DNA of 64,000 nucleotides from a virus (IMGVR_UViG_3300037070_001217:1-64000), one strand, 5' to 3'; shown: positions 47,060-60,836, numbered from the stretch's first letter. Made by a program: numbers and translations. Notes: generated by a model from the letters alone, not told the origin.

Positions 47060-47491
47060 ATGCCAGCCCTGCCAAACCCAAAACACGAAGCCTTCTGCCA
47101 AGCCCGAGCCTTGGGCAAAACGTGGGCGCAGGCCTATGTCGACGCTGGCTACAAGCCTGATGACGGTGCGGCCTCACGCCTGTCAGGGAATGTCAGGATT
47201 CAGGTTCGCCTCATGGAATTGCAGGAGGTCCGAGCCGAAAGACATGAGGTCACCGTCGACTCGATGGCCGCCCAACTCGATGCCGATCGGGCCTTTGCAT
47301 ACCAGTGCAAGAACCCGGCTGCGGCTGTCTCGGCCACACTCGCCAAGGCCAAGCTTTTCGGCTTGCTGACCGATCGAAGCGTGGTTAACGTAACACACAA
47401 CTACGCCGCCATGACTGAGGAGGAACTCCGATTCGAGATCGCCGCAATCCACGCAGAGGCGCGCGCATTGAAGGCAGGCGTGCAGCACTAG
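47060..47491 (+). CDS. terS: Terminase small subunit
   Basis: 143 residues. NPKHEAFCQARALGKTWAQA (residues ~6-25) is the terminase_2-type N-terminal helix-turn-helix: the P.HE.F...R..G....AY..AGY pattern continuing to AGYKPDDGAASRLSGN. The middle is helical and the C-terminus (TEEELRFEIAAIHAEARALK) a coiled coil that would oligomerise. Small subunits recognise phage DNA and recruit the large subunit. The ATPase half of the large subunit follows about 500 bases later, supporting the call. Confidence 0.8.
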   Translation: MPALPNPKHEAFCQARALGKTWAQAYVDAGYKPDDGAASRLSGNVRIQVRLMELQEVRAERHEVTVDSMAAQLDADRAFAYQCKNPAAAVSATLAKAKLFGLLTDRSVVNVTHNYAAMTEEELRFEIAAIHAEARALKAGVQH

Positions 47492-48013: not shown

Positions 48014-48808
48014 ATGAGCGATGTCGACGTCATCGAACTTGACTTGCTGCACCGCCTGCCGCTGCCGACGCAGGCGCGCTATGCGGCGCTCACACAGACG
48101 CTGGTCGAGAAGCTTAAGCAGCGCCTGTTCTTCGACCTATTCCCCGACGCGGATCGCTTGGGCGATGACGGTGCCGTACTCATCTATGCCCGCAGTCGTT
48201 ATCCTAAACATCTCGAGTTCTTTGGAGCCGGGTCGCAGTATCGGGAGCGATGTTTTCTCGCAGCCAATCGAGTCGGGAAAACCACATGCGGCTCCTTCGA
48301 GCTTACGGCTCACCTCACGGGTTTATATCCTGCGTGGTGGAGCGGTAAGCGCTTTGCTCACCCTGTGCGGGCTTGGGCCTGCGGCCGACGCAACGAAACC
48401 ACCCGCGACATCGTCCAAGCCTCCCTGCTCGGCCCCGTGGCTTACGACGGCCTACGCAAGACACTGCAGGGCACCGGCATGGTCCCCGGCAACCTGATCG
48501 GCAGGGTGACGTGGAAGCGCGGCGTTGACGACCTCACCGACACGGTGAGGATCAGGCACGCCAGCGGCGGCTGGAGCACATTAGGATTTAAAAGCTATGA
48601 ACAAGGACGCGGTTCCTTTGAAGGTACTTCGCAGCATGTAGTATGGTTAGACGAAGAATGTCCCATAGACATCTATGGGGAGTGTCTCATTAGACTGATG
48701 ACAACGGGTGGCATCATCCTTTTAACCTTCACGCCGCTCACCGGGCTCTCCGAAACAGTCATGCAGTTCCAGCTAGCGGGCGATCGGGCGCGGCTCGGCC
48801 AGTACTAG
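48014..48808 (+). CDS. Terminase large subunit, ATPase half (split gene)
   Basis: 264 residues. ERCFLAANRVGKTTCGSFEL contains the terminase Walker A-like motif (NRVGKTT, around residue 85), VVWLDEECP the Walker B (~209), and ILLTFTPLTGLSETV the conserved motif III region, all of the packaging ATPase. It stops after QFQLAGDRARLGQY, exactly where a normal large terminase would continue into the nuclease domain. That domain is found as a separate gene at 57569..58321, about 8.8 kb away. No intein or splice-like residues are visible. An HNH endonuclease gene follows 31 bases later. Confidence 0.85.
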   Translation: MSDVDVIELDLLHRLPLPTQARYAALTQTLVEKLKQRLFFDLFPDADRLGDDGAVLIYARSRYPKHLEFFGAGSQYRERCFLAANRVGKTTCGSFELTAHLTGLYPAWWSGKRFAHPVRAWACGRRNETTRDIVQASLLGPVAYDGLRKTLQGTGMVPGNLIGRVTWKRGVDDLTDTVRIRHASGGWSTLGFKSYEQGRGSFEGTSQHVVWLDEECPIDIYGECLIRLMTTGGIILLTFTPLTGLSETVMQFQLAGDRARLGQY

Positions 48809-48839
48809 ACACCAGCTTGTTCTGTGGTACGCTGATGGA

Positions 48840-49343
48840 ATGGAATGGCGCATCTGCCCACGGTTCCCAGAGTACGAAGTGAGCGAGTACGGTCAGCTTC
48901 GACGCTGCGTGCAAGCGAAGGGTGGCGTTGTTGGTCGCCTGCTTAAGGGGCATGTGCGACCAGACGGCTACCTGATGTACATCGTTCGCCGCGATGGCCG
49001 GTCGTGGTATCCGCGAGCCCACCAGCTTGTGCTTGAGGCGTTCGTCGGTCCCAAGCCCTTTCCCAAGGCGGAAGCGCGGCACAAGGATGGCAAGCGTGTT
49101 CTCGACCACTACAGCAACCTCGAATGGGGATCGAGCGCCGACAACAAGGCCGACATGGTGAGGCATGGCACGCGCATAAGCGGCGAGAAGCACCACCGCG
49201 CCAAGCTGACGGCGGCTGATGTCAAGGCGATCCGCAAGGCTGCGGCGGCAGGTGAAGTGCATCGAGTGATTGGTGAGCGGTATGGTGTCCAGCAACCGGC
49301 TGTCTCACGCATCGTGCGCGGTGAGCGATGGGGGCACATGTAG
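48840..49343 (+). CDS. HNH homing-type endonuclease with NUMOD4-like and HTH segments
   Basis: 167 residues from ATG 48840. The opening WRICPRFPEYEVSEYGQLRR is a NUMOD4-like DNA-binding motif. The HNH nuclease core follows: HQLVLEAFVG, ARHKDGKRVLDHYSNLEWGS with catalytic and structural His/Asn residues. The C-terminal LTAADVKAIRKAAAAGEVHR leading to YGVQQPAVSRIVRG is a helix-turn-helix. Free-standing endonucleases of this type invade phage genes; here it sits at the break of the terminase gene. Confidence 0.85.
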   Translation: MEWRICPRFPEYEVSEYGQLRRCVQAKGGVVGRLLKGHVRPDGYLMYIVRRDGRSWYPRAHQLVLEAFVGPKPFPKAEARHKDGKRVLDHYSNLEWGSSADNKADMVRHGTRISGEKHHRAKLTAADVKAIRKAAAAGEVHRVIGERYGVQQPAVSRIVRGERWGHM

Positions 49344-49592
49344 ATGATTGAACAGATTTTGGTCCCGGCCGAGTTCTGGGGGACGGTGTCGGTGGAGGAG
49401 TTCGCTGAGATCATCAAGAACGACGGTTGCTTGGACGCTGACCAGTGCGCTCGGCTGTGGGAGATGGCGAACTGGGAAGACCCGGTGCCGGATACGGTTC
49501 AGGTGATGGTGGAGCGGGAGCAGTTCGAGCAATGGCTCACCGCTATCGGCCCCAAGCCCCAGCCCAGACGACGGGGGCGGGTGAGGCGATGA
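49344..49592 (+). CDS. Small unknown protein after the HNH gene
   Basis: 82 residues from ATG 49344, immediately after the HNH stop. The sequence is acidic and helical (EEFAEIIKNDGCLDADQCAR; VMVEREQFEQWLTAIGPKPQ) with a basic Arg-rich tail. There is no recognised motif. It begins a run of overlapping small genes within the terminase split. Confidence 0.6.
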   Translation: MIEQILVPAEFWGTVSVEEFAEIIKNDGCLDADQCARLWEMANWEDPVPDTVQVMVEREQFEQWLTAIGPKPQPRRRGRVRR

Positions 49593-49762
49593 GCGCTGTC
49601 CCTGAACGCTTCTGCAAGAAGTGCCTTGGTTTTGGTTACGTCGATAGCAAGGAACGTCACAGCGACGGCAGCGGGCATCCGGCGTGGGCCGTCCGGTGTT
49701 CCGAATGCCAGCCAGATAACCTTATGGAGACAGACGACAGGGGGAAGCCAGATGAGCGATGA
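49589..49762 (+). CDS. Small zinc-ribbon-like protein
   Basis: 57 residues; ATG 49589 overlaps the preceding stop (ATGA). ERFCKKCLGFGYVD and VRCSECQP form two Cys-x-x-Cys pairs about 25 residues apart, the arrangement of a zinc ribbon or rubredoxin-like knuckle. Probably binds nucleic acid or a protein partner. Its 3' end overlaps the next start. Confidence 0.65.
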   Translation: MSAVPERFCKKCLGFGYVDSKERHSDGSGHPAWAVRCSECQPDNLMETDDRGKPDER

Positions 49763-50153
49763 TGACGACGACCTGTTCAGCTATCACGCCCGATCAAGCG
49801 ACCCGGACACCAGCCACGAAGCAGTGCCACACAACATCAGCCAACAGGCGTGGCGTGTACTGCACGCCTATCGCAGCGGGCTGGCACTGCTCGATGAGCA
49901 CGCCTACGAGCTTGTCGGCATGGACGGCCACCAGCGTTGCAGTGACCTACGCCGCTGGAAGTTCATCGAGCGCTGCGGACGGGGTAGGACAGCCAAGGGC
50001 AAGGCAGGCTACCTGTGCAGGATCACGCCAGCGGGACACGCCTTCCTCACGGCAGGGGGTGGAGAGCCGATCCCGATGGGGCCAGCGCCCAAGCCCGACG
50101 CCAACGAGGTCGCCTTCTCCTTCGACTACGCCTACGATGACGATGAACACTGA
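49752..50153 (+). CDS. Winged-helix-like small protein
   Basis: 133 residues from ATG 49752, within the end of the previous gene. After an acidic start (DDDDDLFSYHARSSDPDTSH), residues ~30-100 look like a winged helix: QQAWRVLHAYRSGLALLDEH, GMDGHQRCSDLRRWKFIERC, then a basic hairpin (GRTAKGKAGYLCRITPAG). It may be a DNA-binding regulator. No named family. Confidence 0.6.
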   Translation: MSDDDDDLFSYHARSSDPDTSHEAVPHNISQQAWRVLHAYRSGLALLDEHAYELVGMDGHQRCSDLRRWKFIERCGRGRTAKGKAGYLCRITPAGHAFLTAGGGEPIPMGPAPKPDANEVAFSFDYAYDDDEH

Positions 50154-50532
50154 GATAGACTGGCGCGATCGGCTGCTGCAGCGCCTGAACCGTCGCCTGC
50201 ATCCGGGGCCACCAGTGGTCAATGCGGCCCGCGACGAGGAGATCGTGGCACGCAGCAAGGCGGGCGTTCCGCTCGAAGCGCTTGCCAAGGAGCACTACCT
50301 GACGCGGGTGCGGATATACCAGATATGCCGCAAGGCCTACGTGAAGGAGCACGGGACACCGCCGCCGCGACGGCCGCCGCCGACGCTGGAGCGCAACACC
50401 GAGATTTACCGGCGCTTCGTGGCTGGTGAGCGCCCCGCCGATCTTGCTCGGGCATTCAAGTTGTCACGCGGCATGATCAGCATCATTGTCTGGAAGCGTG
50501 GGCGATATGAACAGGAGAGGAGAACGACATGA
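50137..50532 (+). CDS. Small protein with two helix-turn-helix segments
   Basis: 131 residues from ATG 50137 (ATG 50143 is equally possible; neither has a clear ribosome site). Two HTH-like units occur: VPLEALAKEHYLTRVRIYQI at mid-protein and RPADLARAFKLSRGMISIIV near the end, both like sigma-factor region 4 or resolvase HTHs. The protein is very basic. Likely a DNA-binding regulator; target unknown. Confidence 0.6.
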   Translation: MTMNTEIDWRDRLLQRLNRRLHPGPPVVNAARDEEIVARSKAGVPLEALAKEHYLTRVRIYQICRKAYVKEHGTPPPRRPPPTLERNTEIYRRFVAGERPADLARAFKLSRGMISIIVWKRGRYEQERRTT

Positions 50533-50735
50533 ACGCAGTAGCAGACAACGTAAGGGCACGCCTCGCTCAGGTTCGGGCGGCAATAGACGAGGTCGTTAAC
50601 GATCTTGAGATCGCTGGCGACGACCTGAAGGACCGGGTGGCGGCCAAGCTCAAGGACGTCCACTCGGAACTGGGCGAGGTGATCGAGGAGCTTGAGGCGG
50701 CAACCGAGGAAGAGGACGACGAGCCCGCCGAATGA
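50529..50735 (+). CDS. Small acidic coiled-coil protein
   Basis: 68 residues; ATG 50529 has AGGAGAGGAG upstream. Entirely helical (VRARLAQVRAAIDEVVNDLE; DVHSELGEVIEELEAATEEE) with an acidic tail. It overlaps both neighbours by ATGA. Function unknown. Confidence 0.6.
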   Translation: MNAVADNVRARLAQVRAAIDEVVNDLEIAGDDLKDRVAAKLKDVHSELGEVIEELEAATEEEDDEPAE

Positions 50736-50959
50736 GCGAATACTCCTACCAGAACAGCTTGGTGATGGAGCACCTAATAGCGCGAGGCTCGATCACGCCT
50801 CGCACGGCGCTCGACCAATACGGCTGCTTCCGGCTGGCGGCGCGCATCTACGATCTGCGGCAGGCGGGGCACGACATCATCACCACCCGGATACGCAACA
50901 GCGAGGGCAACCCGTATGCTCAGTACGTGTTGCTCAAGCAGGCGCAGAGGGCGGCGTGA
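50732..50959 (+). CDS. Small helix-turn-helix protein (HTH_39-like)
   Basis: 75 residues. VMEHLIARGSITPRTALDQY followed by GCFRLAARIYDLRQAGHDII is the winged helix-turn-helix pattern of small phage proteins that start with N..ML..L..G..IT..EAL..G..RL..RI..LR..G. It probably binds DNA. Start and stop overlap neighbours (ATGA, GTGA). Confidence 0.7.
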   Translation: MSEYSYQNSLVMEHLIARGSITPRTALDQYGCFRLAARIYDLRQAGHDIITTRIRNSEGNPYAQYVLLKQAQRAA

Positions 50960-51225
50960 GGCGCGAATGGATCGCGGACCTCAATCCGGATGCGCTGTTC
51001 GCGGACGGCTACGACGCGGCTCTGATTGGGATAGCCGAGCGCTGCGGCCAGCCGACGCTGGCGGTGTACTCGGTCCCGGCCATGATCAACGTACTGGTCG
51101 AGCGTGATGGCATGAGCGAGGAGGAAGCGGCTGAGTTCATTAGCTTCAACACGCTCGGCTGCTGGGCCGGTGAGAACACACCGCTGTTCTTCTGGCCGCT
51201 GAAGGATGACGATGCACCCGGGTAG
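50956..51225 (+). CDS. Small unknown acidic protein
   Basis: 89 residues from GTG 50956, overlapping the previous stop. Sequence LNPDALFADGYDAALIGIAE, then VYSVPAMINVLVERDGMSEE and EAAEFISFNTLGCWAGENTP. This pattern is common in phage hypothetical proteins that begin by predicting whether a target is large. No function known. The next gene starts within its end. Confidence 0.6.
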   Translation: MRREWIADLNPDALFADGYDAALIGIAERCGQPTLAVYSVPAMINVLVERDGMSEEEAAEFISFNTLGCWAGENTPLFFWPLKDDDAPG

Positions 51226-51487
51226 CCTGTACGACGAGCGGGACGCCAAGATCGTGGCCAAGCGCAAGCGGGGCTTCACGTTGTCGGCGCTGGCCTCCGA
51301 GTTCGGCCTGTCGAAGTCACGCATCCGGCAGATCGAATACCGGGCCAAGCTGGATATCGAGATCGCGGCGCTCGGCCTGACGCGGAAGGAATACCTGACG
51401 CTGATGCGCAAGCGCCGGGTAAGCGTTGGCAACTACGAGTTTGCGGTCGCCTTGCTTGCGTTTGCTGACCACAAGGCGAAGCGATGA
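51206..51487 (+). CDS. Small sigma-region-4-like HTH protein
   Basis: 93 residues from ATG 51206 (ATG 51212 possible). RKRGFTLSALASEFGLSKSR followed by IRQIEYRAKLDIEIA is a sigma70 region 4-type helix-turn-helix. The C-terminus is helical and basic. With the proteins at 49752, 50137 and 50732 it forms a cluster of small DNA-binding proteins inside the terminase split. Target unknown. Confidence 0.65.
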   Translation: MTMHPGSLYDERDAKIVAKRKRGFTLSALASEFGLSKSRIRQIEYRAKLDIEIAALGLTRKEYLTLMRKRRVSVGNYEFAVALLAFADHKAKR

Positions 51488-51579
51488 GCCTGACGACTCG
51501 CGGCCTTGGCGGGTGGCTGCTCGCGTCGATCCTGTTCTGGCTGGTGCTTGGCTTTGTGGTGTGGGTGCTGTTCTGGTAG
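51484..51579 (+). CDS. 31-residue Trp-rich membrane peptide
   Basis: ATG 51484 overlaps the preceding stop (ATGA). The product MSLTTRGLGGWLLASILFWL continues as a single membrane span with four Trp residues in all and ends LFW. Comparable in style to the 29-residue peptide at 46526. Role unknown. Confidence 0.5.
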   Translation: MSLTTRGLGGWLLASILFWLVLGFVVWVLFW

Positions 51580-51652
51580 GCTGTTTGCGGGGCTCTCGAT
51601 CGCGCCCTTCCCGTGGATGACTGCCTTCCGAGCCCCCCGCAAAGATGCAGCC
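51579..51652 (+). other. Long inverted repeat in the 51580-51697 gap
   Basis: GGCTG TTTGCGGGGCTC (51579-51595) pairs with GAGCCCCCCGCAAA GATG CAGCC (51630-51652), a ~17-bp interrupted stem with two extra C bases. The loop is about 34 bases. It may be a structured RNA element or attenuator; it is followed by a short gene. Confidence 0.45.
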
Positions 51653-51697
51653 ACGGATGCGACCGGGAGCCCCACCGACTGGACAGGGACGACTGAA

Positions 51698-51805
51698 ATG
51701 ACGAAGCGCATCAAGGTTGCGCACCTGCCGGGCAATAAGGGCGCGGTGGTCAATCGCAAGGGCCGGATTACACTGGCGAAGGTGGGGAAGAAGCATCATG
51801 TCTGA
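51698..51805 (+). CDS. 35-residue basic peptide
   Basis: ATG 51698 has CAGGGAC upstream. The peptide MTKRIKVAHLPGNKGAVVNR is strongly basic, followed by KGRITLAKVGKKHHV, with alternating strands. It resembles a miniature nucleic-acid-binding beta motif. Its 3' end overlaps the next start. Function unknown. Confidence 0.5.
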   Translation: MTKRIKVAHLPGNKGAVVNRKGRITLAKVGKKHHV

Positions 51806-51995
51806 GAGCGCACCGTCCGCGATCCCGACCGACTTCTTCACGGAGGCCGGGTTCGTGAAGTCCTGCGGGATGAGTTCGCATCCGCGCCCCGGCGACACGG
51901 TGGTGATTGACGCCAAGATGTACAGGGTCAAGGAACTGTCATGGGACTTTGACAGCGGCGGCATGGCGCTGCTGGTGCGCATCAATGTCGAGTAA
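51798..51995 (+). CDS. Small unknown protein
   Basis: 65 residues from ATG 51798, within the end of the previous gene. After an N-terminal helix (IPTDFFTEAGFVKSCGMSSH), it has beta strands (PGDTVVIDAKMYRVKELSWD; GGMALLVRINVE). It looks like a small beta-rich domain. No family recognised. Confidence 0.55.
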   Translation: MSESAPSAIPTDFFTEAGFVKSCGMSSHPRPGDTVVIDAKMYRVKELSWDFDSGGMALLVRINVE

Positions 51996-52149
51996 GGGTG
52001 GCGTCGACATCTCGGCGGTGCGAGGCAATACGGGCCTGATCAAGGTGACGCTGGCTGGCCAGACCGACGACATCGCGATCACCTTCAAGATCACGGACGA
52101 AGAGGCGCGCAAGCTGGTCAAGGTGCTGGAAGGCCAGATCAAGCGTTGA
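51985..52149 (+). CDS. Small alpha/beta protein
   Basis: 54 residues from ATG 51985, overlapping the previous gene by 11 bases. Sequence: GLIKVTLAGQTDDIAITFKI, then TDEEARKLVKVLEGQIKR, a beta hairpin with a helix. It is the last gene before the structured RNA candidate at 52150. No family recognised. Confidence 0.55.
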   Translation: MSSKGGVDISAVRGNTGLIKVTLAGQTDDIAITFKITDEEARKLVKVLEGQIKR

Positions 52150-52332
52150 GGAAAGGGCCGCTCATACCGGCCCGCAATCGCAGGAGCCTAGCGCCTGCGT
52201 GCTGCCGGTTCACCCCGGCACAAAGGGACGGCGGTGCGACAAGGTTTCGGCCTTCCGGGCTAGGCTTCGATCGGGCCGCCGTCCTGCCAGAACAAAGCCG
52301 GATTTTTGATCAGTGGGGGGACTGATCAGTCG
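52150..52332 (+). ncRNA. Candidate structured RNA: five consecutive stem-loops
   Basis: Within 180 bases without a gene, five hairpins follow in order: GGGCCG/CGGCCC (52155-52173), CGCAGG/CCTGCG (52179-52199), TGCCGG/CCGGCA (52203-52220), GGACGGCGG/CCGCCGTCC (52226-52284, with AAGG/CCTT inside) and TGATCAGT/ACTGATCA around six Gs (52307-52328). Closely spaced GC stems are expected by chance in GC-rich DNA, but five in series is unusual. A packaging RNA, small RNA or leader for the gene at 52351 are all possible. Confidence 0.4.
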
Positions 52333-52350
52333 GAACAGGAGCAGAACGAA

Positions 52351-52749
52351 ATGCCAATGAAGTACGACCCGGACACCGGGATACCGCGCTATGTGCCTGA
52401 TATTGGTGAGGAATTGGAGGAAGGCGTTACACCTGCCCCCACGGTTGTAACGTCAAAGTCCGACTTGTTCAAAGGCGACAAGCCGCTGACCAAGGAGATG
52501 TACGAGCGGCTGCGTGATGGGCCGACTGTCGCCAATTCCGAATCCTATACGGTTGGCGTGCCCACTGACGAAGCGGACAAGATGCTGTCCGACGCGATCA
52601 AGAGCGCCAAGCCAGCCAAGCTCGACAAGGACGTTGCCACCGACGAGGAGGTGGACGTGCTCGAGAAGTTCGCCCGCGAGCACACGGTCAGGCACTGGCC
52701 CGAGCTACTGCGGCTGATCAATAGGTTGCGGCAGGCCGAGGCCAAATAG
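52351..52749 (+). CDS. Unknown protein downstream of the structured RNA
   Basis: 132 residues from ATG 52351, with AGGAGCAGAAC upstream. The N-terminus is loosely structured (MKYDPDTGIPRYVPDIGEEL); the C-terminal ~50 residues are helical (LDKDVATDEEVDVLEKFARE; HWPELLRLINRLRQAEAK). Possibly a virion or packaging accessory. A clear terminator follows. No family recognised. Confidence 0.6.
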   Translation: MPMKYDPDTGIPRYVPDIGEELEEGVTPAPTVVTSKSDLFKGDKPLTKEMYERLRDGPTVANSESYTVGVPTDEADKMLSDAIKSAKPAKLDKDVATDEEVDVLEKFAREHTVRHWPELLRLINRLRQAEAK

Positions 52750-52815
52750 CCGCCTGTTGTGTTTTCCGGCCGCTTGGCGGATATTCTCGCGCCAACGGCC
52801 TTCGACACTACGTCC

Positions 52816-52845
52816 ATGCCCGCCCCTCACCCGGCGGGCATTTTG
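52816..52845 (+). terminator. Rho-independent terminator
   Basis: ATGCCCGCC (52816-52824) and GGCGGGCAT (52833-52841) form a perfect nine-base stem with an eight-base loop, followed by TTTT. It separates the small-gene cluster from the virion-type genes starting at 52864. Confidence 0.8.
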
Positions 52846-52863
52846 CTTATCTGAGGGATGCTG

Positions 52864-53169
52864 ATGCCGCTGTTCATCACTGAATACCGCGACCTTGCGC
52901 GCGATATCGGCTCGAACTTCATCGCCGCTGGCATGGAGCCATCGATCGCTGAACAGGCGATGACGCTATCGGGCACGACGGCGCAGTCTGCCGTCTTCAA
53001 TGCCCAGACCGCCTTCGTGATGGTGCATGCGCAGGAGGCGGCCTGTGTGGCATGGGGCACCAATCCAACTGCGACCACGGTCAAGCAGCGCATGGCGGCG
53101 GGTGAAACGCGCTATGTCGGGGTGCCGTCTGGCAGGAGCTTCCGGCTCGCTGCGATCTTAGGAGTTTGA
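52864..53169 (+). CDS. Probable minor virion protein
   Basis: 101 residues from ATG 52864, with GAGGG six bases upstream; ATG 52858 lacks a spaced ribosome site. The sequence (LFITEYRDLARDIGSNFIAA; VKQRMAAGETRYVGVPSGRS; FRLAAILGV) resembles short beta proteins found among phage head/tail decoration genes. It starts the virion-type set after the terminator. Function unknown. Confidence 0.55.
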   Translation: MPLFITEYRDLARDIGSNFIAAGMEPSIAEQAMTLSGTTAQSAVFNAQTAFVMVHAQEAACVAWGTNPTATTVKQRMAAGETRYVGVPSGRSFRLAAILGV

Positions 53170-53172
53170 GCC

Positions 53173-53724
53173 ATGATGAGCGGTTCTCGCGGGGCGGCCG
53201 GTCCCGATCCTTTCACCAGCCTGCTTGGCATTGTCGGTGATCCGAAGGGTACGAAGGAACGCATCGAGCAGTTGCAGAAGGCGACGGCAGCGAACGAGGA
53301 ATCGCTGGAGGCGCTGGCCATCAAGCGGGCGGAACTCGATGCGCTGGCGATCAAGCTGGACAACCGCGAGGCCGACATCGAGAAGGCGCAGGGCAAGGTG
53401 GACGACCAGATCGCGGCGCTTGATGCGCGGGAGAGGGTGGTCGCCCGCAACGAGCAGGATCAGGGCGACATCGTGCGCAAGCTTGCGGCCGATCGGAGCG
53501 ATGCGGCCAAGACGCTTGCCGACAGTCAGGCGACGGCGAGCGAACTGCATAAGGCGCTGGCGGCGCGCGAGGCGGAATTGAACGCGCGGGCTGCCGACCT
53601 CGAGACGAAGGCCCATGCGCTGGAGTCGGAGCGCGCCAAGATTGCGGAGTATGAGGCCGACGTGACCAAGCGTGCGGCCGATCTCGACAAGCGGATAGCA
53701 GCGATGCGGGAACTGGTTGGCTGA
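53173..53724 (+). CDS. Coiled-coil protein, possible virion or tail protein
   Basis: 183 residues; ATG 53173 or 53176 follow TTAGGAG. Residues ~30-180 are a continuous charged coiled coil (ELDALAIKLDNREADIEKAQ; ADRSDAAKTLADSQATASEL). It could be a tail, scaffold or fibre-assembly protein. The stop overlaps the next start (TGATG). No named family. Confidence 0.55.
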   Translation: MMSGSRGAAGPDPFTSLLGIVGDPKGTKERIEQLQKATAANEESLEALAIKRAELDALAIKLDNREADIEKAQGKVDDQIAALDARERVVARNEQDQGDIVRKLAADRSDAAKTLADSQATASELHKALAAREAELNARAADLETKAHALESERAKIAEYEADVTKRAADLDKRIAAMRELVG

Positions 53725-53960
53725 TGGGGGATGGCAGCGCCGGTCTGGCCGTAGGCACCGTCAAGGTAGTCACCACCAGCAATGGCGGGCGGCCACCTGA
53801 GTTCTTCGCGGAACGCATCATGGATCGGCTGATGTACGTCAGCGACAACATCCCAGAGCCGCTCAAGGATCAGGTGCTGTCGTATCAGGTTCAGATGCAC
53901 CAGATCATTCTTGCGGGGATCAAGGCAGCGATCGAGAGCGATCGCATCTACCGCAAATAG
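53724..53960 (+). CDS. Small unknown virion-region protein
   Basis: 78 residues from ATG 53724. A Gly-rich start with beta strands (GLAVGTVKVVTTSNGGRPPE) leads into a helix pair (MDRLMYVSDNIPEPLKDQVL; HQIILAGIKAAIESDRIY). Short helical proteins with this pattern are common between virion genes. Function unknown. Confidence 0.55.
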   Translation: MGDGSAGLAVGTVKVVTTSNGGRPPEFFAERIMDRLMYVSDNIPEPLKDQVLSYQVQMHQIILAGIKAAIESDRIYRK

Positions 53961-53973
53961 GAAGGACTTCAGG

Positions 53974-54423
53974 ATGGCTCCGACTCAAGCGATATGCACG
54001 ACGTTCAAGCAGGAATTGATGACGGGCCTGCACAACTTCACGATCAGCACGGGCCACGCCTTCAAGATCGCACTGGTGACGAGCGCCAGCACGATCTCGG
54101 GTGCGACGGACCACTACAGCGGCGGCACCAACAACATCAGTTCCGAGGTGGCGAACGGCGGTGGCTACACGACAGGCGGCACGGCGCTGACCAACGTGAC
54201 GCCCACGGTGTCGAGCACGACGGCGCTGACCGATTTCAGCCCTGACCCGGTGTGGACGACGTCAACGATCACGGCCAGAGGCGCGCTGATCTACAACACG
54301 ACGAGCACCAACCGCTCGGTGCTTGTGCTGGATTTCACCAGCGACAAAAGCTCGAGCGCAGGTGATTTCACTGTGGTCTTCCCGGCTGCGGATGCGTCCA
54401 ACGCGATCATCCGAATTGTCTGA
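53974..54423 (+). CDS. Beta-rich minor virion protein
   Basis: 149 residues; ATG 53974 has GGAAGG upstream. The opening CTTFKQELMTGLHNFTISTG and the following KIALVTSASTISGATDHYSG, then Thr/Ser/Gly-rich strands, match small phage proteins found beside tail-fibre genes across several phage groups. It is probably a virion decoration or fibre-associated protein. Function not established. Confidence 0.6.
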   Translation: MAPTQAICTTFKQELMTGLHNFTISTGHAFKIALVTSASTISGATDHYSGGTNNISSEVANGGGYTTGGTALTNVTPTVSSTTALTDFSPDPVWTTSTITARGALIYNTTSTNRSVLVLDFTSDKSSSAGDFTVVFPAADASNAIIRIV

Positions 54424-54496
54424 TTGGTCATGATGTGCCGATCGATGAAGGGGCTCATGGCATAAGGCTCCCCGTCAGCGAGAGGGCGGGCGAGCC

Positions 54497-57337
54497 GTGA
54501 GCACGGCACCCGTAGTCCTCGTCGCCGGAACCGGCGCGGCTGCGGCCACGCACACCACGGCATCGTTCTCGCCAGCGGCCGACCGGCGGCTGGTAGCATA
54601 CATCGCGTCGTTCAAGGCGACGGTGGGTGTAGCTACGCCCACGATATCTGACACTGGCGGCCTCACATGGACGCTGCTGGCCAGCTACGTGATGTCGACG
54701 TTCAGCAATCCCGACACACGCGGCGATTGGTACATTTCATCTGACACGGGCGGCGGCACGCCAGCCGCGAGGACCGTCACGGTCACCTCGACCGGAGCCG
54801 CCTCGATCGGCGTTATGGTCGCGTCGGTCCTGACGTCGGACGTGTCGGGGTCGATCGTCCAGTTTGCGACTGGGGAAGACCTCAGCGCGGGCGATCCGCA
54901 GATAACGTTCGGCTCTGCTCCGGGCGCGACGAACATCGTGCTGCTCGGTACGTCGCATGTCGGTGGCAGCACGGTCACTGGCCCGACTGGCTACACGTCG
55001 CTCTGCAACTCCGTCCACTCTGCCTCGCGCAAAATTGCGTGTGCGTATGACATCACGTCGGCAAGTCAAAGCCCGCAGTACACGTCGCTCAACGCCCGCG
55101 TGATCATGCTCGGCATCGAGCTAGCGCCGCCATCCGCTGGCGCTGTCAACGTCAACGCGACGACAAATAGCGCCACCATCACCTGCGGCGACGTCACGGT
55201 CACCGCGAACCAGACCGTCAGCGTCGATGCCGCGACCAATCTGGCAACGGTTAGCGTCGGGGATGTCACCGTCACTGCCGGGGCTGGGGCGGTCAACGTC
55301 AGTGTCGACGCCACCGGCAACAGCGTCACGGCCACGCTTGGCGATGAATCGATAGTCGGCAAAGCAAATACCGATGCGGCCACTAACCTCGCCACTGTCA
55401 GCGCCGGGGATGTGACGGTCACCGGCAAGGCCAGCGTCGACGCCACTGGCAATCAAGCGACGATCAGTGTCGGCAACGTCACGGTCAGCACCGTCTCTGC
55501 CGTCAACGTCAGCGTCAACGCGACGGGCAATTCGCTGGCGATCGGCACCCAGACTGCGACGGTTGTCGGCAAGGCCAGCGTCAGCGCCACGACGAATCTG
55601 CTGACGGTGACAGCCGGTAGCGTTTCGTTCCCGGTCCCGGTCAGCGTCAATGTGACGGGTGAGTTCCTTGGCGTTGGGCAGGGCACGGTCACGGTCACGG
55701 CGGGCGGCGCGCTTACTGGCAATGCCGCCACCATTTCAGTCGGCACCGCGACCGTCACTGCGGTGACCACCGTCACCGTCTCTGCCATGACGGCGCTCAC
55801 CGCCAGCAGCGGTCGCGGCACGGTCAGGCTTGTCTTTGGCAATCCGCTCGGTCCAACGCTGGTGGCGAATCTTGCCTCGATCACCAACCCGTTCGTGGCT
55901 GTGAATGTCGCGGTGGACGTGCAGGCTGGTGACCTGATCTACGCCGTCCTGTCGGAGCAGACCAACATCACCGTGACGGCGATGTCGGACAATCTCGGCA
56001 ACACCTACACGGCGCTGAGTGCGGGATCGGATTGCGGGGCATCTACCAGTCGGGCGTTCTATGCGCCGGTCACTGTTGCCGGGATGCTGACGCAGGTATC
56101 GGCCGCCTGCACGTCGAGCGGCGACAATGCCGTCATGCTGGCGCAGGCCTTCCAAGGGCCGTTCACGACGCCGTCGCTCGATGCCAATCCCGGCAATGCT
56201 GTCAACGCCGACATCGTGTCGCCCTATGTCGGTCCATCGACCGGCACGCTGACACAAGCCGACGAACTGCTGGTCGCATGGCTAACTCGGCCCGACAGCA
56301 CCGGCATAGTCCCTGTCGCGCCGCTGCTTGTGCTTGCGCAATTCAACTCCGGAACGGTCATTCGCACCGCCCTGTCCTATCGGGTGCTGGCCTCGACCAG
56401 CAGTGTTGCGCCGTCGTGGACGTCCGCCACCGATCCGACCCAGACCATAATGGGGGCGACCAGCTTCAAGAAGAGCACGGGCGGCGGCCTCAACGTCAAC
56501 GTCGATGCAACGGGCAGCAGCGTCACGGCGAGCGTCGGCACGGCTACGGTCACGGCGGTCCAGAACGTCACTACGAATGCTGCGACCAATCTGGCCACGG
56601 TGAGCGCGGGCACGGTGACGATCGTCGGCAAGGCGCGGGCCTTGGCCGATACCAACCTGCTGACGACCGCAATCGGTGACGAAACGGTCACCGGCACGGC
56701 CAATGTCACGACGGCCAGCACTGGGCTGACGATCTCGCTCGGCAACGTCACGGTTGGCGAGGTCACTGGCGTTTCGGTCGACATCGTCGCCAGCCCTGCT
56801 CTTGCGATAAGTGCAGGCACGGTCAGCGTCACGCAAGGTTTTGGCGTTTCCGTCTCGACGTCGATGACGTTCAGCCTGATTTCGATCGGCAACGAGACGG
56901 TGCAGTACGGCGCGGGCGCATCTCCCGCCGCCATGCCTGAGCTGACGATGCCGGTTGCGGGCACGCTCGCGGTCAACACCAAGGTCAACTACACGGTCTT
57001 CAACGTCCCGCAGATGACGATCGCGGCGGGCATGGTGACGGTTGTCGGCACGGCCAACACGACGATCGCGGCCGTCCCCGGCATGACGATCAGCGGCGGC
57101 GACGAGACGATCGGGCTCGGTGTGCAGGTCACTGTGACGGCCATGCCAGCGCTGGTCGCATCGACCGCTTTGGCTGACGGTGTGACGATAACCGGCAGCG
57201 CGAGTATCATGGTGACCGGCAACCAGATGAATTTGCAGTTGGGGAATGTGTTTGTTTCGATAAGTGGAGGTGGAGTGGTGGCCGAAACGCGCGGCGAGGG
57301 GCAGATGCTTGTCATGTCGCGGCTGATGGGCAATTAG
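54497..57337 (+). CDS. Large repetitive beta virion protein, two globular domains each followed by a repeat array
   Basis: 946 residues from GTG 54497. Residues 1-215 and ~430-660 look like two copies of one beta-sandwich type domain (SFSPAADRRLVAYIASFKAT against VAVDVQAGDLIYAVLSEQ). Each is followed by an array of ~20-residue beta repeats of the form V.V.ATGN..T.S.GDVTV.GKA (residues ~215-420 and ~665-930). Such arrays occur in phage appendage proteins and probably build a fibre or capsid/tail decoration. The gene lies between the two halves of the terminase. Ends in a short helical tail (GEGQMLVMSRLMGN). Confidence 0.6.
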   Translation: MSTAPVVLVAGTGAAAATHTTASFSPAADRRLVAYIASFKATVGVATPTISDTGGLTWTLLASYVMSTFSNPDTRGDWYISSDTGGGTPAARTVTVTSTGAASIGVMVASVLTSDVSGSIVQFATGEDLSAGDPQITFGSAPGATNIVLLGTSHVGGSTVTGPTGYTSLCNSVHSASRKIACAYDITSASQSPQYTSLNARVIMLGIELAPPSAGAVNVNATTNSATITCGDVTVTANQTVSVDAATNLATVSVGDVTVTAGAGAVNVSVDATGNSVTATLGDESIVGKANTDAATNLATVSAGDVTVTGKASVDATGNQATISVGNVTVSTVSAVNVSVNATGNSLAIGTQTATVVGKASVSATTNLLTVTAGSVSFPVPVSVNVTGEFLGVGQGTVTVTAGGALTGNAATISVGTATVTAVTTVTVSAMTALTASSGRGTVRLVFGNPLGPTLVANLASITNPFVAVNVAVDVQAGDLIYAVLSEQTNITVTAMSDNLGNTYTALSAGSDCGASTSRAFYAPVTVAGMLTQVSAACTSSGDNAVMLAQAFQGPFTTPSLDANPGNAVNADIVSPYVGPSTGTLTQADELLVAWLTRPDSTGIVPVAPLLVLAQFNSGTVIRTALSYRVLASTSSVAPSWTSATDPTQTIMGATSFKKSTGGGLNVNVDATGSSVTASVGTATVTAVQNVTTNAATNLATVSAGTVTIVGKARALADTNLLTTAIGDETVTGTANVTTASTGLTISLGNVTVGEVTGVSVDIVASPALAISAGTVSVTQGFGVSVSTSMTFSLISIGNETVQYGAGASPAAMPELTMPVAGTLAVNTKVNYTVFNVPQMTIAAGMVTVVGTANTTIAAVPGMTISGGDETIGLGVQVTVTAMPALVASTALADGVTITGSASIMVTGNQMNLQLGNVFVSISGGGVVAETRGEGQMLVMSRLMGN

Positions 57338-57353
57338 CGAAGGGAACTGTACT

Positions 57354-57572
57354 ATGATAGGCCTAATCATAAACCTGATCATATACCTGCTGATTCTCGG
57401 AATCTTGTACTACTTATTTGTGTACGTAGTGGACAGCTTTATCCCAGAGCCGCCCCAGAGAATCCTGAAGGTGGCGGCCATAGTTGTACTATGTATCATC
57501 GTGATCCTGCTTTTGCTGGACTTGATAGGCGGGAGCGGCAGCTTCCACCTGCCTAAGATCACGACGCAATGA
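57354..57572 (+). CDS. Thivi_2564-like small two-pass membrane protein
   Basis: 72 residues; ATG 57354 has AAGGGAAC upstream. Two hydrophobic segments (GLIINLIIYLLILGILYYLF and LKVAAIVVLCIIVILLLLDL) flank a short PEPPQRI loop, the pattern of a small membrane family seen in phages. The gene is AT-rich compared with its neighbours and contains three TGTACT-type sequences like the early operators. It might be a holin or exclusion protein. Its stop overlaps the terminase nuclease start. Confidence 0.55.
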   Translation: MIGLIINLIIYLLILGILYYLFVYVVDSFIPEPPQRILKVAAIVVLCIIVILLLLDLIGGSGSFHLPKITTQ

Positions 57573-58321
57573 TGGGCGAGGTTTCTCCATCACGCTACGT
57601 CGTGCAGGCCGGATGGGATTCGGTCCCGCATCTGGACGAGAAGACCAAGAAGGAGCTTCTCGACTCGACGCCGGAATACCTGCGCGATGCGCGCTCGAAG
57701 GGCGAGCCGACGATGGGCTCGGGTGTGATCTACCCGATCCCGATCGGCGACATCGAGGTCAAGCCGTTCGCCATCCCGTTTGGCTGGAAGAAGGGCTATG
57801 CGCTCGATGTCGGCTGGAACCGGACGGCCGCGCTGTGGGGCGCGCAGAACCCGGTCGACGGCACGATTTACTTCTACAGCGAGCACTACAAGGGGCAGCA
57901 ACTGCCGGTCGTCCATGCCTCGGCCATCAAGACCCGGGGCGAATGGATTCGCGGCGCGATCGATCCGGCCTCGAAGGGCTCGAGCCAGAAGGACGGCAAG
58001 CAGCTAAAGGCCGAGTACCAGAGCTTGGGGCTGATCCTGATCGACGCCAACAACGAACTCGAGGCGGGGCTGATCGCCTGCTGGCAGGCGCTGGCGCTCG
58101 GGCAGATCAAGATTTTCTCCACGCTGCAGTCCTTCAAGGCGGAATACCGCGTGTACCAGCGCGACGAGCGTGGCCGCATCGTGGATGGGCAGGCCGATCA
58201 CCTGATGGACTGCATGCGCTACCTCTGGCGCACATGGGACAGGGTGGCGGGATTGCCGTCGCTGAAGCACAGGCAAGGCGGTGCTGGCATTGGCACTGCC
58301 GACAAGAGAGCAGGGTACTGA
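57569..58321 (+). CDS. Terminase large subunit, nuclease half (split gene)
   Basis: 250 residues from ATG 57569, overlapping the previous stop (ATGA). The sequence begins GEVSPSRYVVQAGWDSVPHL, the linker that in an intact large terminase follows the ATPase motif III, and continues into the RNase H-like nuclease: YALDVGWNRTAALWG (Asp80), GAIDPASKGSSQKDG (Asp132) and ADHLMDCMRYLW (Asp210, Asp214), which supply the metal-binding acids. It is separated from its ATPase half (48014..48808) by ~8.8 kb and would have to associate in trans. It leads the portal and capsid genes. Confidence 0.85.
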   Translation: MMGEVSPSRYVVQAGWDSVPHLDEKTKKELLDSTPEYLRDARSKGEPTMGSGVIYPIPIGDIEVKPFAIPFGWKKGYALDVGWNRTAALWGAQNPVDGTIYFYSEHYKGQQLPVVHASAIKTRGEWIRGAIDPASKGSSQKDGKQLKAEYQSLGLILIDANNELEAGLIACWQALALGQIKIFSTLQSFKAEYRVYQRDERGRIVDGQADHLMDCMRYLWRTWDRVAGLPSLKHRQGGAGIGTADKRAGY

Positions 58322-58322
58322 G

Positions 58323-60836
58323 ATGGCTGACCTGATGGTAATGAACCCGCCGCAGCAGGGGCAGCAACTGCCGGAATCCCTGCAGCAACGGCCACGGCCG
58401 CCATCGAGGGAGAGGCTGAAAGAGATCATTGGCCGCATGGAAGCGGAGGTGACGAGCCGGATCGGCAAGCGCACCAACTTGGAGGATCGCTGGATCGCGG
58501 CGCTCGAGCAGTATCACGGCCGCTATGACCCGGCGACGGCGAAGGTGCTGTTCGAGGAGCAGCGATCGGGGCTGTTCATCAATGCGACCCGGCCCAAGAC
58601 CGACGCGCTGGCGGCCCGCCTGAAAGACCTGCTGTTCCCGACCGACGAAAAGAACTGGGGCATTTCCCCGACGCCGGTTCCGCAACTGGCCGACAGTGCG
58701 GAGCGCGCGGCGGCTGACTTCCGTCAGAAGCAGGAGGCGGCGACGGCTGCCGCAGAGCAGGCGCAGCAGCAACCGATGGCACCGGCCGGGCCACCGCCAC
58801 CGCCACAGGGGGCACCAGCGCCAGAGGGGGCCCCAGCGCCACAGGGAGAGCCGCCACAGGGGCTCGGAGGTCCGCCGCCACCACAACAGCCGGGACCGCC
58901 GCAAGGCGCTCCTCCAATGGCGCAGCAGGCCGCAGCGCTGCAGCAGCAGGCCGACGAAGCCAAGGAAGCGGCGGTCGCGCTCAACGCTCGGCTCGAGGAA
59001 GGCCGCAAGCGCGCCGACCTGATGGAGAAGGAGATCGATGATCAATTGACGGAATGCCGCTATCAGTCCGTCAAGCGCGAGCAGATCGATTGCGCGGTCA
59101 AGCTCGGCACCGGGGTGACCAAGGGTCCGGTGACAGGCGACAAGGTGCGGCGCGGCTGGAAGCAGGACGACCAGACCGGCGAGCACAAGCTTGACGTCTC
59201 CACCGGCCAGCAACCCGCGTTCAGATACGTCGACCTGTGGGGGTTCTTCCCCGACATGGACGCCACCTGCATCGAGGAGTCGAACGGCACCTTCGAGCGC
59301 CATTTGATGAATCGCAAGCGGCTGCGCGATCTGCAGCATCTCGAGGGGTTCGACAAGGACGCCATTCGCCGGTTGCTGCAACTGGCCCCATCGACTGCGG
59401 CCCCGGCCTACCTTGCGCAGTTGCGCAACATCCGCGCGGCCACGCAGCAGGTGACGGGCGATCTTTATCATGTGTTCGAATATTACGGCCCATTGGAACC
59501 GGCCGACATGCAGGACATCGCGCTGACGATGCTGCAGAGCCGGGACCAGACCCTCACCGGGATTGCCGACGAGGCGCTGAAGCAGGTGGACGAGATCGAT
59601 CCGCTGACCTCGGTCAATGCCTGCATCTGGTTCTGTCAGGGCGAGATTCTGAAGTTCGCGCTGTACCCCTACGACAGTGGCGAGTGCATCTATTCGGTGT
59701 TCAATCTGGTCAAGGACGAAGCCTCGATCTTTGGCTACGGCATGCCCGACATCATCCGTGATCCGCAGTCGGCCATGAATGGGGCGTTTCGCGCGATGAT
59801 GGACAACGCTGGCGTGTCGTCAGGTCCGCAAATTGTCATCGACATGCAGAACATCGAACCGGAGGACGGCGACTACCGGCTCAAGCCGCGCAAGATTTGG
59901 ACGGCCAAGAACGGGCTGCAGAAAGAGAACCCGCCATTCCAGCTATTCCACATCGAAACCCGGCAGGAGGAACTGACCAACATCATCATGCTATGCAGCC
60001 AGTTCATCGACATGATGAGTTCGATGCCGCAGATCATCCAAGGCCAGATGGGCGAGGTTGGCGCGCACCAGATTCAGCAGACGGCGACCGGGATGGCGCT
60101 GCTGCACAATTCGGCCAACACGGTGTTTCGCGCGATCGTCAAGAACTTCGATGACGATGTGACGACGCCCGACATCCGGCGTTCCTACGACTGGAACATG
60201 CAGTTCAACGAGAAGCCCGAGATCAAGGGCGACTACGAGGTCGACGCGCGCGGCAGTTCTGTCCTGCTGATGCGCGAGATGCAGGCGCAGAACCTGATGG
60301 TGATCGCCGTCCAGCTAGGCGGGCATCCGATCTTCGGGCCGATGCTGCGCAATCGCGAACTGCTGCGCAAGATATTCCAGAGCTACATGATCCCGGCCGA
60401 CGAGGTGATGCTGTCGGACGACGAGATCGACGCCGTGCTGGCGGCATCCGCGCAGGACAACGAGGCGGCGGCAGCGGCGCAGGCGGCGATGCAGGTGGAG
60501 CAGGCCAAGGCTGCGCTCGAGAAGGAGAAGATGCAGATGCAGGCGGCGCTGGCCAATCAGGCCAACCACTCGAAGGAAGTGATCGCCCAGAAGCAGTACG
60601 ACGCGCAGATGAACTTGATGGCGGCCAAGCTCAACATGAGCCTGCAGGAATTGCAGGCGATGCTGGCTGGCAAGCAGATGGATCATCAGTCGAAGGAGCG
60701 CATTTTCGCGAGCGAGGTGGCGATCGAGCAGCGCAATGCGGAGGCGGCTCGGGCGCGCGGCGAAGTGCCGAAAGGCTCGGGCGGGTACGTCTCGGCGGGA
60801 GGTAAACCCAACGGCAAGAAGGCGACCGCGAAATGA
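58323..60836 (+). CDS. Portal protein
   Basis: 837 residues from ATG 58323, two bases after the terminase stop; the frame upstream to 58281 overlaps that gene. N-terminal helical domain (RLKEIIGRMEAEVTSRIGKR; FEEQRSGLFINATRPKTDAL), a Pro/Gln-rich disordered insertion at residues ~155-210, then the portal core (YVDLWGFFPDMDATCIEESN; VFNLVKDEASIFGYGMPDII) and a C-terminal Gln/Ala/Lys-rich coiled coil of about 130 residues. The portal ring forms the DNA channel and docks terminase. Position after terminase and before scaffold and capsid supports the call. Confidence 0.85.
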   Translation: MADLMVMNPPQQGQQLPESLQQRPRPPSRERLKEIIGRMEAEVTSRIGKRTNLEDRWIAALEQYHGRYDPATAKVLFEEQRSGLFINATRPKTDALAARLKDLLFPTDEKNWGISPTPVPQLADSAERAAADFRQKQEAATAAAEQAQQQPMAPAGPPPPPQGAPAPEGAPAPQGEPPQGLGGPPPPQQPGPPQGAPPMAQQAAALQQQADEAKEAAVALNARLEEGRKRADLMEKEIDDQLTECRYQSVKREQIDCAVKLGTGVTKGPVTGDKVRRGWKQDDQTGEHKLDVSTGQQPAFRYVDLWGFFPDMDATCIEESNGTFERHLMNRKRLRDLQHLEGFDKDAIRRLLQLAPSTAAPAYLAQLRNIRAATQQVTGDLYHVFEYYGPLEPADMQDIALTMLQSRDQTLTGIADEALKQVDEIDPLTSVNACIWFCQGEILKFALYPYDSGECIYSVFNLVKDEASIFGYGMPDIIRDPQSAMNGAFRAMMDNAGVSSGPQIVIDMQNIEPEDGDYRLKPRKIWTAKNGLQKENPPFQLFHIETRQEELTNIIMLCSQFIDMMSSMPQIIQGQMGEVGAHQIQQTATGMALLHNSANTVFRAIVKNFDDDVTTPDIRRSYDWNMQFNEKPEIKGDYEVDARGSSVLLMREMQAQNLMVIAVQLGGHPIFGPMLRNRELLRKIFQSYMIPADEVMLSDDEIDAVLAASAQDNEAAAAAQAAMQVEQAKAALEKEKMQMQAALANQANHSKEVIAQKQYDAQMNLMAAKLNMSLQELQAMLAGKQMDHQSKERIFASEVAIEQRNAEAARARGEVPKGSGGYVSAGGKPNGKKATAK

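Follow-up and report, generated by a model that had tools for sequence, protein, structure and literature searches.

Introduction

In models of the large terminase subunit (TerL), ATP hydrolysis by the core moves the lid, or 'transmission', which in turn moves the nuclease/DNA-grip domain. In other terminases, the part made up of lid, linker and nuclease closes on the nucleotide, and it moves DNA or cuts it. In herpesvirus UL15, where two exons lie around other genes, the spliced mRNA gives one protein. Here we describe a stretch of viral DNA of 64,000 nucleotides (IMGVR_UViG_3300037070_001217:1-64000, called the window throughout) in which TerL is encoded by two genes, an N-half and a C-half, that lie 8,760 bp apart. 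The window resembles UL15 in having TerL parts apart with genes between them, but UL15 is spliced to one protein. The motifs of T4 gp17, D6E, P22 and Sf6 TerL, their core-lid-linker-nuclease order and their collinearity with single profiles are found here too; each of those is one chain, whereas here there are two genes, with the cut between the ASCE ATPase core and the lid.

When T4 gp17 is split at its linker, ATPase and nuclease activity are kept and translocation is lost entirely (PMC3012670). The terL genes of ICP1 and Jug-phage are interrupted by introns and spliced to one protein (PMC10448857, PMC12363816), and they are like the window in having terL in pieces with homing endonucleases nearby, but RNA splicing rejoins the pieces there, whereas no intron was found here. 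A ribonucleotide reductase split by a homing endonuclease, a case of genes-in-pieces cited in PMC10448857, works as two polypeptides; there the homing endonuclease gene (HEG) made the split, whereas here the split occurs without one. The TerL of Parabacteroides phage PhiPDS1 was reported as 'split into two CDS' (coding sequences) and this was explained by the codon table or the assembly (PMC10773633). The two coding sequences were described as the two domains, and neither a family nor an insert island was reported. Podovirus ct2G2228 (MW202785) likewise has two adjacent coding sequences, both named 'large terminase protein', although the gap is short (133 bp) and the split goes uncommented in the record. 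A split TerL therefore has precedents in PhiPDS1 and this GenBank podovirus, while the present split point between engine and lid, its breadth and its insert island appear undescribed: no account of any of the three was found in the literature searched, most subscription journals lying outside it.

Results and Discussion

Two complementary TerL halves

A search of the whole record (64,139 bases) with the terminase large subunit profile PHROG 2, of 807 positions, gave exactly two matches, profile positions 266-404 at 48194-48742 and 419-624 at 57518-58456. The two matches are collinear and complementary along the profile, as the original prediction had proposed for a comparison with intact TerL, and both open reading frames (ORFs) that it had placed at 48014..48808 and 57569..58321 are present. 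Since PHROG 2 has only these two matches and PF03237 and PF17289 one each, there is no second intact terL, a finding that would have spoken against the prediction, in the 64,139-base record, which is linear and possibly incomplete. The genes run in the order small terminase (TerS), N-half, insert of about 8.8 kb, C-half and portal, with about 18-20 ORFs between the halves, in line with the roughly 20 inserted genes predicted.

All of the ASCE motifs are found in the N-half: Walker A NRVGKT (R86/K89), Walker B with the catalytic glutamate (D213, E214) and motif III TFTPL (238-242), followed by a 22-residue tail and the stop. It matches Pfam Terminase_6N (E 2.6e-16), PHROG 31467 (E 3e-80, residues 32-253) and PHROG 2 (E 6.7e-12). 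The C-half, which matches PHROG 5653 'terminase large subunit' (E 2.2e-16) and PHROG 2 (E 6.4e-10), consists of a lid (~1-46), a linker (~47-58) and an RNase H-like nuclease (~59-230) with its acidic residues D80, D132 and D210/D214; D80 and D210 are near-universal among relatives and D132 is present in most. No NCBIfam model names either half. The lid subdomain that belongs between core and nuclease is thus carried by the C-half, and of the TerL features compared only the single polypeptide holding all domains is absent. With two complementary halves and the catalytic residues kept, the earlier statement that nothing essential is missing holds. Within the N-half, 48585-48730 appears AT-richer by eye in a GC-rich surrounding region and is a possible recombination tract.

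The cut lies between engine and transmission

The original prediction had the ATPase half complete and stopping exactly at the domain linker. This needs correction, as the stop follows motif III inside Pfam's ATPase domain and the lid is absent, so that the cut lies between the ASCE core (the engine) and the lid (the transmission), ~45-50 residues before the ATPase-nuclease linker. The C-half is lid, linker and nuclease: the prediction was right about its acidic residues, and wrong in having it start at the linker. In fused relatives, Pfam Terminase_6N aligns from position 1-2 through 212-214 of 215 and is followed by Terminase_6C, whereas in split N-halves the Terminase_6N match ends at position 145 (window), 150 or 153. 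The remainder of the domain can be seen ahead of Terminase_6C in the C-halves of L137 (positions 165-212, weak, E 0.27) and L055 (169-212, over the curated cut-off with 22.4 bits and E 1.1e-4).

Known structures place the junction in the same way. The linker of D6E TerL is 230-241, and Y213 and R224 are lid residues (PMC5727402); a profile of the fused relatives meets the D6E crystal sequence from chain residue 199, at the segment that opens the C-half, and runs into the nuclease, so that the D6E lid residues align to the C-half. Chain numbering was taken as paper numbering plus 3, from the agreement of residue letters. The P22 nuclease-domain construct 4dkw begins at C-half residue ~49. A model of the isolated C-half is confident over the nuclease, residues 59-230 (predicted local distance difference test score, pLDDT, mostly 82-96), and of low confidence over the lid, residues 1-50 (pLDDT 31-67), as would be expected for a lid without its partner. 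By Foldseek this model matches the P22 TerL nuclease 4dkw (E 1.2e-14) and full-length D6E over 232 columns. A profile of the N-half only found no match in the PDB.

The split is common among relatives

Relatives were collected by scans of IMG/VR and GTDB species genomes and kept where both halves were located, which after removal of near-copies left 148 distinct rows, the window included; three of them (M511 from L008+L082, M3206 from L002+L099 and M1407 from L006+L086) were each made by joining, end to end, two loci that overlap on one contig. The TerL is split at the same point in 81 of the 148 rows and is fused in one ORF in the other 67. The original prediction had called for a search for the same split in related phages and had considered split terminases rare, which is not the case in this TerL radiation. 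Measured from the N-half stop to the start of the C-half match, the gap is below 150 bp in 36 split rows and 150 bp or more in 45, with examples that range from an overlap (-19) through 302, 388, 1,161, 1,796, 2,861, 4,721, 7,492, 8,761 (window), 9,180, 11,174 and 11,471 to 12,239 bp.

The window falls in a clade of eight rows, every one split by 4.7-12.2 kb, that has a Shimodaira-Hasegawa-like approximate likelihood ratio (SH-aLRT) of 100 in a tree of both halves and is nested in an all-split set of 32 rows (SH-aLRT 86). The fused or split state changes 19 times on the tree, at least 8 of these changes being forced by well-supported branches. Isolate genomes with the split include Aminobacter aganoensis DSM 7051, Metarhizobium album, Azospirillum agricola, A. 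cavernae and Sphingopyxis flava, and further ones come from Acidovorax, Halomonas and Chromohalobacter; the complete circular record MW202785 is split too. That the break comes from mis-assembly or sequencing error, as the PhiPDS1 authors suspected of assembly or codon table for their split TerL, is scarcely credible when the identical break point recurs in independent metagenomes and in isolate genomes (Azospirillum, Aminobacter, Sphingopyxis, Halomonas, Acidovorax and others). As a general cause it is excluded, and with it, for the family, the mis-assembly that the prediction had named as a way of being wrong.

Quick trees of the separate halves point to exchange between lineages. One C-half type forms a single clade (support 100) of 26 rows, and the N-halves of these rows are spread over the N-half tree, where this type requires 9 changes, at least 4 of them forced. 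In the 32-row split set the N-half and C-half distance matrices correlate with r 0.68, and none of 500 permutations was as high. The same mirror-tree comparison in the adjacent-split set gave an r of only 0.15, which we attribute to the two C-half types that occur there, and given this value strict co-inheritance across the whole family is not claimed. It is likely that the halves mostly travel together, with recombination at the junction between lineages.

Both halves are selected and probably separately translated

Walker A K89, Walker B D213/E214, motif III T240/P241, lid R42/G45/P47 and nuclease D80/D210 are conserved equally in split and fused rows, a few rows, intein-bearing ones among them, having a gap or N at Walker A. 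Between the window and its closest relative, M511, the N-half has a nonsynonymous rate (dN) of 0.107 and a synonymous rate (dS) of 0.70, and the C-half a dN of 0.044 and a dS of 0.40 (dN/dS about 0.15 and 0.11), showing that both halves are under purifying selection. A broken terminase of a decaying prophage or defective phage, its DNA packaged by an intact TerL elsewhere, would fit a linear record that may be incomplete, but selection on both halves, the retained catalytic residues, an architecture shared by 81 distinct rows and the complete circular MW202785, and the lack of another terL in 64.1 kb make it very improbable.

Each half is a reading frame with its own start and its own stop. 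C-halves in the window's set begin with a dedicated start, M/V-P-[EA]-[IV]-x-x-S-[KR], for which the window has M-G-E-V. In the adjacent forms L137, L161, L132, L185, L184 and L170, the ATG of the C-half overlaps the TGA of the N-half as ATGA, and the C-half ATG of the window overlaps in the same way the TGA of the 72-aa gene before it. These overlaps, together with the dedicated start, argue for separate, coupled translation of the halves.

The signals at the junction also bear on whether the halves are exons rejoined by splicing, through an 8.8-kb intron or in trans, as in ICP1 and Jug-phage. Spliced terL genes are known in phages (PMC10448857, PMC12363816) and an HNH gene adjoins the break in the window; nevertheless, we regard this as quite improbable. 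Covariance models (Rfam) run on the window region and on eight split relatives found no group I or II intron. At the junction the N-half ends in a stop of its own and the C-half opens with its own start, and the gaps hold conserved coding modules on the same strand. In the adjacent forms there is no room for an intron because the genes overlap by ATGA. As to a split intein, Pfam shows no Hint/intein domain in either window half, and the N-half tail GDRARLGQY* and the C-half start MMGEVSPSRY show no intein fragment by eye.

A probable two-protein motor subunit

The reading we favor, with a probability of roughly 0.8, is that two independently translated proteins assemble into one TerL protomer, in which ATP-driven movement is passed between core and lid with no peptide bond to join them. 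The first protein, the ASCE ATPase core, would bind and hydrolyze ATP, and the second would bring the lid/transmission subdomain, the linker and the RNase H-like nuclease. The lid would dock on the ATPase core at the site where it is usually tethered, giving one functional, DNA-packaging TerL protomer on the portal, and ATP-driven lid motion would pass through the non-covalent interface. The arrangement probably started out as a pair of genes that overlapped at the motif III/lid junction and were coupled in translation; with the covalent link dispensable, virion genes and passengers could later have built up between them (as much as 12.2 kb in relatives), and some lineages could have swapped halves. 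The original prediction that the halves could assemble in trans into a working motor is supported in their complementarity and completeness, and assembly itself would be the most likely outcome.

Several points weigh against this reading. We infer N-half to C-half binding and motor function in trans, and trans assembly is not to be presumed, because splitting the T4 gp17 linker abolishes translocation (PMC3012670). The AlphaFold model of the N-half is poor (mean pLDDT 64.5), had no significant PDB match by Foldseek and was left unused. Support for the 32-row split set reaches an SH-aLRT of only 86, compared to 100 for the inner clade, and the adjacent overlapping forms could yield some fusion product by frameshifting, which is impossible for kilobase gaps.

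The two proteins might instead share no protomer, the N-half being a free-standing ring ATPase like that of phi29 and the C-half a separate, DNA-cutting nuclease that is brought in only for initiation and for termination. Motors of the phi29 type are described in PMC7672431 as working with a vestigial nuclease, and separate genes permit different dosage. However, the lid required to close the ATP site sits on the C-half, and its residues W16, H21, R42, G45 and P47 are retained in split rows as in fused ones, which makes this alternative unlikely.

The motor has been cut in nature at the engine/transmission joint, apparently several times and with both genes kept, the T4 linker being the other joint. 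This offers a natural test of how ATP hydrolysis is coupled to DNA movement, covalent against non-covalent and with natural proteins, in which the ATPase core can be swapped, titrated or omitted. We consider it reasonably probable, though less so than the shared protomer itself, that these TerLs form a widespread class of two-subunit motors, in which separate ATPase engine and lid-plus-nuclease proteins assemble in trans, have been exchanged between lineages and can do without a core-lid peptide bond, and that the gap has turned into an accessory-gene island that includes Tad2-like anti-defence genes.

The insert behaves as an accessory-gene island

The features of the window are collected in Table 1. 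The conserved module at 52858-57572 (the 103-aa, 183-aa, 78-aa, PHROG 644, ~946-aa and 72-aa genes) is found between the halves in the closest relatives too. Five of its genes, all but the 946-aa one, were tested with hidden Markov models (HMMs) and are found only in gaps, except in L094, where the 78-aa and PHROG 644 genes follow the C-half. The 103-aa gene nearly fills the 302-bp gap of L119 and is never found outside a gap. The 946-aa protein has a conserved C-terminus (L085, L091) and a variable body.

Table 1. Features in and around the split terL of the window.
Feature	Position	Strand	Evidence or distribution
Small terminase (TerS)	47060..47491	+	PHROG 51 terminase small subunit, E 5.9e-11
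TerL N-half, 264 aa, ASCE ATPase core	48014..48808	+	Pfam Terminase_6N 1-145 of 215 only; PHROG 31467
HNH (NUMOD4-type) endonuclease gene	48840..49343	+	PHROG 59/1492/959, E to 1e-31; Pfam HNH_3 2.4e-5, just under cut-off
Variable small-ORF cargo, differing between close relatives	49344..52749	+	Few homologs in relatives' gaps
Sigma-70 region-4/helix-turn-helix-like ORF in cargo	51206-51487	+	Pfam Sigma70_r4 1.2e-5
Terminator-like hairpin, 9 pairs, between variable cargo and conserved module	52816..52841	+	Pattern scan
103-aa protein, most conserved insert gene	52858..53169	+	Clusters and HMM search; 14 gaps
183-aa coiled-coil protein, conserved module	53173..53724	+	9 gaps (window included), found nowhere else
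78-aa protein, conserved module	53724..53960	+	7 gaps; after C-half in L094
PHROG 644 protein, conserved module	53911..54423	+	PHROG 644, E 8.6e-20
946-aa repetitive protein, virion-like by appearance	54497..57337	+	PHROG 38872 4.3e-6
72-aa predicted membrane protein (hydrophobic by eye)	57354..57572	+	Directly upstream of C-half in 8 gaps
TerL C-half, 250 aa, lid + linker + RNase H-like nuclease	57569..58321	+	PHROG 2 421-596; D6E alignment; model and Foldseek
Portal/head-to-tail connector	58281..60836	+	PHROG 332 4.7e-25; PHROG 1216 portal 1.8e-11

The HNH gene, which starts 32 bp past the N-half, could be taken as the footprint of a homing endonuclease insertion that split terL, and unrelated HNH or endonuclease VII-like genes do lie in the gaps of five other relatives (L020, L026, L075, L131 and L134). 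Such an origin is doubtful, slightly more so than a motor of separate proteins, as M511 has the split but lacks this HNH, many relatives have the split and no insert, their halves overlapping in some cases, and the gap endonucleases are of different families, as expected of repeated later colonization. Unlike in genes-in-pieces, no HEG marks the split site across the family. The HNH gene has homologs in only two other gaps, L045 and a weak one in L090, which makes it a passenger in the window, and as the general cause of the split it is rejected, since relatives are split without it.

Other gaps carry different cargo. A gene with a Tad2-like (anti-Thoeris, that is, Thoeris anti-defence) domain lies between the halves in L121 (10705-11298, Pfam 4.6e-23) and has homologs in L072 (10653-11225) and L091 (2569-2850), and a Phage_gp49_66 protein in the L124 gap has homologs in L085 and M511. 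The split site thus behaves as an accessory-gene island within the packaging module, and the DNA-binding and virion-type genes that had been predicted for the insert are supported. No known RNA family was found in the insert, and the 'RNA candidate' also predicted there may be the hairpin at 52816-52841. In the pattern scan, terminator-like sites in total were not above shuffles, and a promoter scan gave one site compared to 2.2 expected. A GDSL lipase-type gene between the halves of L005 (11461-12897), with a homolog in L014 (3557-4894), possibly encodes a tail-associated surface-degrading enzyme.

Annotation and further observations

Split TerLs are probably under-annotated. PHROG 31467, a TerL family of N-half size (261 positions), is listed as 'unknown function', and PHROG 5653 (199 positions, terminase large subunit) covers the nuclease part only. 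For annotators, this means that marker-gene surveys can mistake a lone C-half for a complete TerL.

Insertions at Walker A with LAGLIDADG/Hint or intein-splicing domains, which are probable inteins, were seen in the N-halves of L027 (577-2523), L072 (8606-10561), L055 (2523-4742) and L134 (8879-10498). The C-half of L055 (5178-6884) also has an intein-splicing domain, so this TerL is both split and twice intein-bearing. Elsewhere in the window, 12522-22547 is an ORF of 3,341 aa with a ddrB-ParB domain (7.5e-37), a large polyvalent-type protein.
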